64,000 nt of DNA from Phycisphaerae bacterium (GTDB lineage: Bacteria > Planctomycetota > Phycisphaerae > UBA1845): assembly GCA_028289375.1 (NCBI GenBank), contig JANQQK010000093.1, forward strand, positions 1-64,000, read 5' to 3'. Positions within the stretch are counted from its first letter, which is position 1; each line of letters starts with the position of its first letter. Position numbers and translations under genes: made by a program. Positions 26,112-38,144 of this stretch are shown in pieces. The notes beneath the pieces are model-generated. The model did not search any database and was not told the origin of the DNA. It worked only from the letters and a program-made list of their open reading frames with translations.

Positions 26112-26996
26112 CTATTTCTTGTTCGACGTCGCCTGCGTTGCATCCGTGCGCAGCGTGCGAAGTCGGTCGAGAAGGCCGTTGATATCTTTTTGCACCTGAC
26201 GCGTGCCGTTGGTCGTTTGGGGTTCGGCAGATGCGTCGGGTTCCATGGCGTCGACAAGCTTGTCGTTCTCCACGCGGACCAGCTCATCGAATGCGTTCTG
26301 TTTGGTTGTCATGCCGCCGATGCGTAGTTTCGTGCGGACGGTTGCGGCTTCTTCGCGGTCTTCGATCACGCGTATTGGCGTGATGGACTGCGCGGTGACG
26401 CCGACGAAGACGAGCTTGCCGCCCATTTGCACGAGCGCGACGCTTTGCTTGGGGGCGATGTGCGTTTGCGTGAGCACACTGAGGACGTCGCCGCCGTTGA
26501 TGCGCGTCGTGCCTTTGAATTTTTTCATGCCCCACGCGACCGCGCCGATGGCGGCCAGCACGATGCCAAGGGGCAGCAGGCCGGTTTGGTACCATGCCGG
26601 CTGTCGCGTGATGGTGTCTGATGTCGATGTTGTGCGTTCGATGGTTGTTGTTGGGCGTCTGGAATTGACGGGCGTGGATTGTGTCGCTTCCGGCCTCTTG
26701 ATCGTGACAGAAGGCTGCGTTGGTGGCTCGACGACTGGTGGTGTTGCCTGTTGCGCCGGTGGTTCCGACGTTGTCTCAGGTTGCTCGACTGTTGGGTGGA
26801 GTTCGATTGCGGCGGCAGCATTCGCGGGCGTTGATGCAACCGTGGCCGACGCGGTTGTTGTGTCGTGCTGACGCAACGTCTCGGCGATGTCGTGCAACCA
26901 CGGGATGGACTGCGCTGACAGCGAGGCGGTCGCGAGCATGATGATCAGTGTTGAAATGTGGAGATTGGTTAAGATTCGGTCAGGCGGCGGATACAT
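26112..26996 (-). CDS. fliO: FliO-like export gate assembly protein
   Basis: A 294-residue protein. It has an N-terminal signal-like helix (about 12-28), a long Thr/Pro/Ala-rich periplasmic stretch (30-135), one transmembrane helix (about 138-158, LLPLGIVLAAIGAVAWGM) and a FliO domain (about 165-225, 'SVLTQTHIAPKQSVALVQMGGKLVFVGVT'). A C-terminal helix ends with 'LLDRLRTLR'. FliO helps FliP oligomerise. The periplasmic extension is much longer than in enterobacterial FliO. It overlaps the fliN stop by 17 nt. Confidence 0.87.
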   Translation of the reverse strand: MYPPPDRILTNLHISTLIIMLATASLSAQSIPWLHDIAETLRQHDTTTASATVASTPANAAAAIELHPTVEQPETTSEPPAQQATPPVVEPPTQPSVTIKRPEATQSTPVNSRRPTTTIERTTSTSDTITRQPAWYQTGLLPLGIVLAAIGAVAWGMKKFKGTTRINGGDVLSVLTQTHIAPKQSVALVQMGGKLVFVGVTAQSITPIRVIEDREEAATVRTKLRIGGMTTKQNAFDELVRVENDKLVDAMEPDASAEPQTTNGTRQVQKDINGLLDRLRTLRTDATQATSNKK

Positions 26997-27855
26997 CCTG
27001 CAATCCTTGCACGATCTCGCTGATGCGGACGCAGAAGTTGTCGCTTAAGACGAGCACTTCTCCGCGAGCGATGAGTCTTCCATTGACATAGACATCCACC
27101 GGATCACCGGCGAGGTTTTCCAATTCGACGACACTGCCTTCGCCGAGTTTGAGTACGTCTTCGATGAACATCTTGGTCCGTCCCAACTCGACGTGCACCC
27201 GAAGGGAGACGTCGCGGAGAATCGAGATGTCCTGTTCGCTGTTTGCCTTGGGGGCCGCCGAGAAATCGGGCACGTCCAATGCTTGTGGTTGGGGGCCTTC
27301 GGGGGCAGCGGGTGCTGATGGTGCTGGCTCGGCGGCTTCTTCTTCGATGGCAGCGGCCATCGCGGCGGCAATGTCATCAAAGGGGCGACCGGCAGAGTCG
27401 AGCCGTTCGTCTGCGGGCGTTTCTACTTCGTCGGCAGCCTGTGCTGCTTCTTCGATGGCCGCATCCGCAATGGACTGTGCGGAGTCGGGTTCAGATTCTG
27501 CGGCGGCTTGGGTGGCGTTGTCGAGGTCGGCGAGGGCCGCGTCGATGTCCGCCTGGCTGATGCCTTCTTCAGCTGGTGGTTCGGGCGCGGTGGCTTCCGA
27601 TGCCTGCTGGAGTGCCGCATCGATATCCGATTGCGACAGTTCGCCGGAGGAGTCGCCGGCGTCGGGCGTTGCCGATTCGGCGCCTTCGGCGGCAGCGTTG
27701 AGGGCCGCGTCGATGTCGGCCTGACTCAACTCGCCTGAGTCACCGGCAGCGTTCTCAGGGCTGGGAACTGGATCGGGCTGGTTCTGTGGAGAATCGCCCT
27801 GCTCGTTCTCAGGATTGTCGGACTGGTTTTCGAGTGGTTCTTCCGGCATCGCCAT
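26980..27855 (-). CDS. fliN: Flagellar motor switch protein FliN with three FliM-type CheY-docking repeats
   Basis: A 291-residue protein, more than twice the ~137 residues of E. coli FliN. The C-terminal SPOA domain (about 212-285, 'VSLRVHVELGRTKMFIEDVLKL', broken by normal variation, and 'VDVYVNGRLIARGEVLVL') is typical FliN. The N-terminal 200 residues are acidic and alanine-rich and contain LSQADIDAAL (43-52), LSQSDIDAAL (73-82) and ISQADIDAAL (99-108). These match the LSQ-x-EID-x-LL peptide with which FliM binds phosphorylated CheY. The gene directly follows fliL, where fliM would be expected. So this FliN may provide the CheY-binding function of the C-ring. Confidence 0.92.
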   Translation of the reverse strand: MAMPEEPLENQSDNPENEQGDSPQNQPDPVPSPENAAGDSGELSQADIDAALNAAAEGAESATPDAGDSSGELSQSDIDAALQQASEATAPEPPAEEGISQADIDAALADLDNATQAAAESEPDSAQSIADAAIEEAAQAADEVETPADERLDSAGRPFDDIAAAMAAAIEEEAAEPAPSAPAAPEGPQPQALDVPDFSAAPKANSEQDISILRDVSLRVHVELGRTKMFIEDVLKLGEGSVVELENLAGDPVDVYVNGRLIARGEVLVLSDNFCVRISEIVQGLQDVSAA

Positions 27856-27903: not shown

Positions 27904-28419
27904 TCAAAGATGGGTACGGGAGCGGATCATGTTGGGTATGAGCACTTCCTCGATGAGTTCCTTGCTGAGGAGATTGTTCAATTCAAACTTCAGTTGTCGC
28001 TTGATCACCTGAAGAGCGGGATCTTTGAGGTCTTCGGGGTCGGCTGAGCGGATGATCGTCTGAATGCGGTCTCTGATGGACTGGGCGCGGGCTTCGACAA
28101 ATCGTTCGACCATTTCCTTGTTCTCGGCGGCGACGATCGCAGAGACTTCGAGGTGGTACCCGTAGGTTTTGCCCTCTTTGCTGTTGGTGGCTTGGGTTTC
28201 GCAGATCTTGAGTTCGTTTTCAGACTCGAAAGGGTCGACTTCGACCACGATTTCTTCGGCGTTGCCGAGGTCAGGGTCGGGACTGATGAAGTTGGTCAGC
28301 AGGTAAATGCCGATGCCCTCACCAATCATCAGGGCGGCGACGATGATGATCGGTTTGAGCTTGCCCTTGGCGGATGGTGCTGGTTGATCCTGTTTCTCTT
28401 CCGCTTTTTCAGCTGCCAT
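27904..28419 (-). CDS. fliL: Flagellar basal body-associated protein FliL
   Basis: A 171-residue single-pass membrane protein: a charged cytoplasmic N-terminus, one helix (about 23-42) and a periplasmic FliL domain (about 55-170) with 'RDRIQTIIRSADPEDL' and a C-terminal 'LLSKELIEEVLIPN'-type end. FliL rings surround MotAB stators and stabilise their active state. Its start overlaps the motB stop by 11 nt and fliN follows after 48 nt. Confidence 0.93.
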   Translation of the reverse strand: MAAEKAEEKQDQPAPSAKGKLKPIIIVAALMIGEGIGIYLLTNFISPDPDLGNAEEIVVEVDPFESENELKICETQATNSKEGKTYGYHLEVSAIVAAENKEMVERFVEARAQSIRDRIQTIIRSADPEDLKDPALQVIKRQLKFELNNLLSKELIEEVLIPNMIRSRTHL

Positions 28420-37115: not shown

Positions 37116-38144
37116 TCAGACGATCATTTCCTTCTCGCCGCCACGTCCTGAGATGATGATCTCGCCGGCATCTTCGAGTCGTCTCACGACGTCGACGATT
37201 TTTTGCTGCGATTGTTCGACGTCGGCGACGCGGACCGGGCCCATGTACTCCATGTCCTCCATGATGAGCTGGGCCGCCCTTTCGGACATGTTCTTGAAGA
37301 TCTTGTCGCGAAGCTCTGTGCTGGCGGTCTTGAGTGCGAGCGAGAGATCGTCGTTCTCGATCTCCTTGAGCATTGACTGAATGCCCTTGTCGTTAACGAG
37401 CATGAGATCCTCGAAGACGAACATGAGTCGTCGAATCTGATCGACGAGTTCGGGATCTTCGGTTTCGAGCGCTTCGAGGATGCGCTTCTCGGTCGAGCGA
37501 TCGGCGAGGTTGAGCATCTCCGCAACAGACTCCACACCGCCAACGCTGCGGAAGGTCTGCGACACGATGCCGGAGAGCCTCATCTCCAAACCTTCCTCGA
37601 CTTCCTTGACGACCTCTGGATTGGTCTGGTCCATGTTGGCGATGCGCGACACAACCTCGAGCTGCTTCTTCTGCGGCAAGCCGGCCAGAATCTGTCCGCC
37701 CTTGCTTGCGGGAACATGGGCGAGGATCAGGGCGATGGTCTGTGGATGTTCGTCCTGAATAAACGTCCGAAGGTTCTCGCCGTCTGTGCGCTGAAGGAAG
37801 GAGAACGGTTGCTTGTAGACCTCGCCTTCGATGATCCCGATGATGCGTTGTGCTTCGTCGGCCGGCAGTGCGTTGACGAGCATGTTTCGGGCGTAGGCGA
37901 CACCACCCTGGTCCATGTACTGGGTGGCCAGAGCAAGGTTGTAAAACTCCTGTACGACCTTGGCGCGCGTGCCGCTATCGACGTAGTCGACAAGTGCGAC
38001 CTCGCGCGTCAGCAACTCGACAACGTCCTGGTCGATCTCAGCCAACAGCCGAGCAGCGGTCTCCTGACCAAGCGTCACGAGGAGGATCGCGGCTTTGCGA
38101 ATTCCGCTGACGGCGGCTGTTTCCTGTTCCTGTGTGGCCGGCAT
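37116..38144 (-). CDS. fliG: Flagellar motor switch protein FliG
   Basis: A 342-residue protein with the three FliG segments. The N-terminal part binds FliF, the middle part has 'QTIALILAHVPASKGGQIL' (EHPQ motif region), and the C-terminal torque-generating domain has the charged helix 'STELRDKIFKNMSERAAQLI'. All key elements for MotA interaction appear intact. fliF precedes it by 18 nt. Confidence 0.96.
   Translation of the reverse strand: MPATQEQETAAVSGIRKAAILLVTLGQETAARLLAEIDQDVVELLTREVALVDYVDSGTRAKVVQEFYNLALATQYMDQGGVAYARNMLVNALPADEAQRIIGIIEGEVYKQPFSFLQRTDGENLRTFIQDEHPQTIALILAHVPASKGGQILAGLPQKKQLEVVSRIANMDQTNPEVVKEVEEGLEMRLSGIVSQTFRSVGGVESVAEMLNLADRSTEKRILEALETEDPELVDQIRRLMFVFEDLMLVNDKGIQSMLKEIENDDLSLALKTASTELRDKIFKNMSERAAQLIMEDMEYMGPVRVADVEQSQQKIVDVVRRLEDAGEIIISGRGGEKEMIV

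Follow-up and report, generated by a model that had tools for sequence, protein, structure and literature searches.

FliN of a Phycisphaerae bacterium (GCA_028289375.1) carries three decapeptides of the type found at the N-terminus of FliM, and no fliM gene lies beside fliN, which raises the question whether this protein has taken over CheY reception from FliM in the flagellar motor or provides docking sites in addition to those of FliM. The window, meaning the whole stretch of DNA analysed, comprises 64,000 nt (contig JANQQK010000093.1, positions 1 to 64,000). It contains a large flagellar cluster in which fliN is flanked by fliL and fliO, and which also includes fliF, fliG, fliH, fliI and fliJ. 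The features concerned are as follows.

26980-27855, minus strand: fliN, 291 aa, with a disordered N-terminal arm bearing three FliM-type peptides and a C-terminal SPOA domain
27700-27729, minus strand: putative docking peptide 1, LSQADIDAAL, FliN residues 43-52 (from sequence; predicted helix)
27610-27639, minus strand: putative docking peptide 2, LSQSDIDAAL, residues 73-82 (from sequence; predicted helix)
27532-27561, minus strand: putative docking peptide 3, ISQADIDAAL, residues 99-108 (from sequence; predicted helix)
27340-27411, minus strand: conserved box RLDSAGRPFDDIAAAMAAAIEEE and its neighbours, FliN residues 149-172 (from conservation; predicted helix)
27010-27219, minus strand: SPOA domain of FliN (FliMN_C, PF01052), residues 213-282 (Pfam)
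27904-28419, minus strand: fliL, upstream neighbour of fliN (PF03748)
26112-26996, minus strand: fliO, downstream neighbour of fliN (PF04347)
37116-38144, minus strand: fliG, the other C-ring gene in the window (PF01706, PF14842, PF14841)

The C-terminus of FliN is an ordinary SPOA domain (PF01052, E 5e-23), for which the closest solved structures are the FliN chains 1o6a and 8umd. PF01052 was the sole Pfam match above the cut-off, and neither a FliM middle domain nor a CheC-like domain was found in the protein. The three decapeptides described in an earlier note on this DNA are present exactly at 27532-27729 of the minus strand and share an open reading frame with PF01052. Only 15 of 200,000 composition-preserving shuffles of FliN residues 1-205 yielded at least one such peptide, and different codons encode the three copies, so that their occurrence is not due to chance. 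The codon differences also ruled out an assembly or frame artefact, together with the FliN of a genome of the same genus (G001, its contig identical to that of MAG OFTM371; L036/L037), which has four copies, the fourth being degenerate (LSPADIDAAM).

In the E. coli complex of FliM and CheY, the contacts include Leu6, Gln8, Ile11, Asp12 and Leu14 of FliM (PMC3774744). Measured against the core L-x-Q-x-[DE]-[IV]-D-x-[L]-[L], contact positions 6, 8, 11 and 12 are satisfied in all three copies of the window, and the retention of these CheY-contacting positions speaks for docking. Position 14, however, is Ala instead of the contacting Leu in three out of three copies; this speaks against docking or, judged by the sequence, argues for weaker or different CheY binding. 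AlphaFold, supplied with a 26-sequence alignment, predicted a helix on each peptide (block pLDDT 82-84; numbering in the model is 2 lower than in the gene), and the linkers between them were of low confidence. As overall pTM was 0.29, the relative placement of parts in this model is meaningless, and the model is silent on binding.

The earlier note had considered fliM to be missing and had suggested that CheY docking moved to FliN, leaving a C-ring of FliG and FliN alone. Within the window its observation that no fliM lies between fliL and fliN is true, and this lack of fliM in the window and beside fliN is what favours a replacement of FliM. The genome search, in contrast, located a complete fliM. 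In the host genome (5.0 Mb, 94 contigs, 99% complete) one copy of a full-length fliM is present on contig C43 (G000:C43:175763-176767; PF02154, E 3e-66), encoding FliM middle and SPOA domains. The N-terminus of this FliM, MADVLDQSEVDSLL, contains its own docking peptide, LDQSEVDSLL, and a match to host FliM was detected in 54 of the 60 genomes searched. Replacement of FliM by FliN is thereby refuted by the very criterion that the earlier note had set, and we give it practically no chance; since fliM is present elsewhere with its own peptide, the array on FliN in all likelihood supplements the docking sites of FliM. For fliN and fliM to lie apart is usual in this phylum, as fliM was not found within 3 kb at any of 80 planctomycete fliN loci; fliL was found within this distance at 65 and fliP at 72 of the 80 loci. 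Directly upstream of host fliM lies aroA, encoding EPSP synthase (L005:6339-8771, G000:C43), and aroA was also observed in the fliM flank of 20 out of 30 relatives.

A third SPOA protein, FliN-like and 142 aa in length, is encoded on contig C50 (G000:C50:9180-9605) and starts with MDILDQSEIDALL. This orphan (L006:6178-6606, G000:C50, minus strand) bears a FliM-type peptide at its extreme N-terminus and is conserved over the order; the protein or a paralogue was matched in 57 of 60 genomes searched. Its gene adjoins fatty-acid synthesis genes, with fabF in the flank in 24 of 30 relatives. Three C-ring-type proteins of this genome thus bear five FliM-type peptides among them. A tighter DNA pattern scan of the genome returned 14 matches, including these five (three in FliN, one each in FliM and the short FliN-like protein), compared to 2 in the reversed control. 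Of six matches inspected from a wider DNA pattern scan, none resembled a docking peptide at the N-terminus of a motor protein.

A survey for FliN peptides was carried out across Planctomycetota. FliN was recovered from 55 genomes of the order, and copies were counted only if the central Gln was present. Peptide number was 0 in 13 genomes, 1 in 15, 2 in 16, 3 in 8, 4 in 1 and 5 in 2; hence 42 of the 55 have one to five and 27 have two or more. The array is not peculiar to one genome, and the threefold copy number put forward in the earlier note holds for this genome but not as a general figure. Beyond the order, Planctomycetaceae, Pirellulales and related records have FliN loci with one to three copies, most of which fit the pattern [IVLM]xQx[DE]IExL. 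In a tree of 50 genomes, calculated from FliM and the FliN SPOA domain and with half of its branches weak, copy number changed at least 25 times and presence or absence at least 6 times.

These frequent shifts, and the absence of the array from some families, would be compatible with duplications within a low-complexity linker that have no function and are either decaying or selectively neutral. Such an origin is nevertheless very improbable given how the residues are retained. Two species of the host genus share 28 of 30 peptide residues although only 13 of 30 codons are identical, whereas the linkers have diverged and share 63 of 138 aligned residues. Contact positions are near-invariant across the order: among 85 FliN copies, Ile11 is found in 83 and Asp12 in 79 (Asn otherwise), while the invariance of Gln8 (85/85) is built into the search pattern. 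Position 14 is Ala in 40 copies, Leu in 39 and Met in 6.

FliM still has one peptide in 49 out of 53 genomes, and in three more Pro replaces the Gln. Since FliN is peptide-free in 13 of the 55 genomes while FliM usually keeps its own peptide, the FliN array is dispensable, which counts against docking. Both proteins bear peptides in 37 of the 50 genomes having both. FliM of G042, G046 and G059 (L221, L222, L220) has Pro for the conserved Gln (LDPNEVNALL, LDPSEVDALL), and FliN of these three genomes is free of peptides.

The chemotaxis partners were examined in the host genome. On contig C25 a che operon encodes CheW, a chemoreceptor, CheR, CheA, a 395-aa CheC-like protein, CheD, CheY and CheB; chemoreceptor and CheR were identified by translation alone, and CheA has two Hpt stretches and a P2 domain. 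Two CheV proteins with receiver domains are encoded outside this operon. The 395-aa protein (L181:12296-13483, G000:C25) has two CheC-like stretches in tandem and is perhaps the CheY-P phosphatase of the host system. Host CheY (L181:14002-14367) has 6er7 (archaeal-type) and the CheY entries 1tmy/4iga as nearest PDB entries. Compared to the E. coli sequence, the residues involved in phosphorylation and the equivalent of Tyr106 are retained in it, and Lys119 is changed to Ala. In E. coli, Lys119 of CheY pairs with Asp12 of FliM, and the Ala at this position counts against docking. Taken together, sequence, order-wide conservation of the CheY contacts, predicted helices and an intact chemotaxis system back the proposal of the earlier note that the repeats are FliM-type docking peptides.

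The presence of two CheV with receiver domains and of the double CheC-like protein also fits the view that the FliN peptides dock a receiver or partner other than the motor CheY, such as one of these proteins, or, like FliY of Bacillus, hold CheY-P for dephosphorylation instead of triggering switching. The peptides of FliN furthermore form a sub-type of their own (DIDAAL/DIDALL versus EVDALL in FliM), so that a different partner or role is possible. We regard this explanation as unlikely, however, because the retained positions are CheY contacts and CheY is the known ligand of the peptide. A phosphatase would need to act in trans, since FliN itself lacks a CheC domain, and this argues against dephosphorylation.

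Besides the peptides, the box at residues 149-172 (consensus RLDSxGRPFDxxAAAMxxAIEEE) is near-invariant wherever FliN bears peptides and is lacking in each of the 12 FliN proteins checked that have none. No genome has the box without peptides and 12 lack both, although well-supported independent pairs number only three, too few for a correlated loss of box and array to attain significance. Restriction of the box to peptide-bearing FliN would be in line with a structural role of the peptides, as helices packing on SPOA clefts of neighbouring FliN or FliM, or on FliH, with no binding of CheY. In Salmonella, FliN exchanges α1 helices between clefts, and the FliN dimer is bound by a stretch of FliM_N (PMC11528121), which likewise favours packing. 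On the other hand, zero to five copies fit poorly with a fixed packing role, and the peptide matches that portion of FliM which binds CheY and not the stretch that binds the ring (residues 34-45 of Salmonella FliM). The box itself, possibly the α1 packing helix of FliN, is a better candidate for packing than the peptides, and we consider the structural role of the latter improbable, somewhat more so than docking of another partner.

The most convincing explanation is that FliN probably serves as an auxiliary, multivalent, putative docking ring for CheY-P beside FliM, with three FliM_N-type helical peptides on a disordered arm. Each peptide would dock the α4-β5-α5 face of CheY-P in the manner of the FliM N-terminus. 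Located on the long arm, the peptides would provide many more capture sites at the lower rim and increase CheY-P locally. CheY-P is known to be captured first by FliM_N and to pass from there to a second site, situated on the FliM middle domain or on FliN (PMC9126983, PMC7355467). If the stoichiometry of the Salmonella ring applied (34 protomers, FliM:FliN 1:3; PMC11528121), about 306 FliN peptides per ring would be present in addition to 34 on FliM. We infer CheY-P binding, the additive role, the stoichiometry and the effect on switching alike.

Compared to canonical FliN of E. coli and Salmonella, the host protein has the SPOA fold and a presumed position at the lower C-ring rim in common, but with 291 aa it is far longer than the canonical protein (~137 aa). 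Canonical FliN of E. coli and Salmonella is not known to carry an EIDALL peptide. In E. coli, FliN itself reportedly binds CheY (Sarkar et al. 2010, as cited in PMC7534056). With the N-terminal peptide of FliM (EIDALL in E. coli and T. maritima) the FliN repeats share Leu6, Gln8, Ile11, Asp12, a flexible arm and a predicted helix. In contrast to the FliM peptide, which occurs once at the extreme N-terminus, they are internal and present in three copies, and Glu10 is replaced by Asp and Leu14 by Ala.

Another related protein is FliY, known from B. subtilis and T. maritima. FliY of B. subtilis likewise combines a FliM-type N-terminal peptide with a FliN-type SPOA domain, the CheY-binding motif being joined to CheC-type and SPOA domains (PMC8809382, PMC6946799). 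Host FliN differs in having three peptides instead of one and no CheC-like phosphatase domain in between, and identity with FliY was ruled out as no CheC match was obtained. Full or degenerate EIDAL motifs have been described sporadically in FliN and FliY, and diverse species possess several FliN homologues (PMC6946799). Those FliN proteins resemble ours in carrying a full or degenerate motif without a CheC domain (PMC6946799), whereas here the motifs are tandem, vary in copy number (0-5) and extend across much of the order and other planctomycete groups. Nothing specific on tandem, copy-variable docking arrays on FliN, or on planctomycete switch proteins, was found in the openly licensed literature. 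Single EIDAL motifs in some FliN are therefore known, and tandem copy-variable arrays are apparently new as far as that literature goes.

Motor bias is set by the occupancy of FliM with CheY-P, and the step from docking to ultrasensitive switching is still debated. Candidate CheY docking sites in this group are distributed over three C-ring-type proteins, unlike in E. coli. More tentatively, and with the odds rather against it, planctomycete FliN could be a multivalent CheY-P antenna with one to five tethered peptides on each subunit and fast evolution of copy number, which would, regardless of FliM, determine CheY-P occupancy and the cooperativity of the switch, the DIDAAL sub-type of FliN and the EVDALL sub-type of FliM dividing capture from switching. 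Because FliN proteins with 0 to 5 peptides occur naturally in motors that have retained FliM, docking valency would become testable against switch sensitivity.
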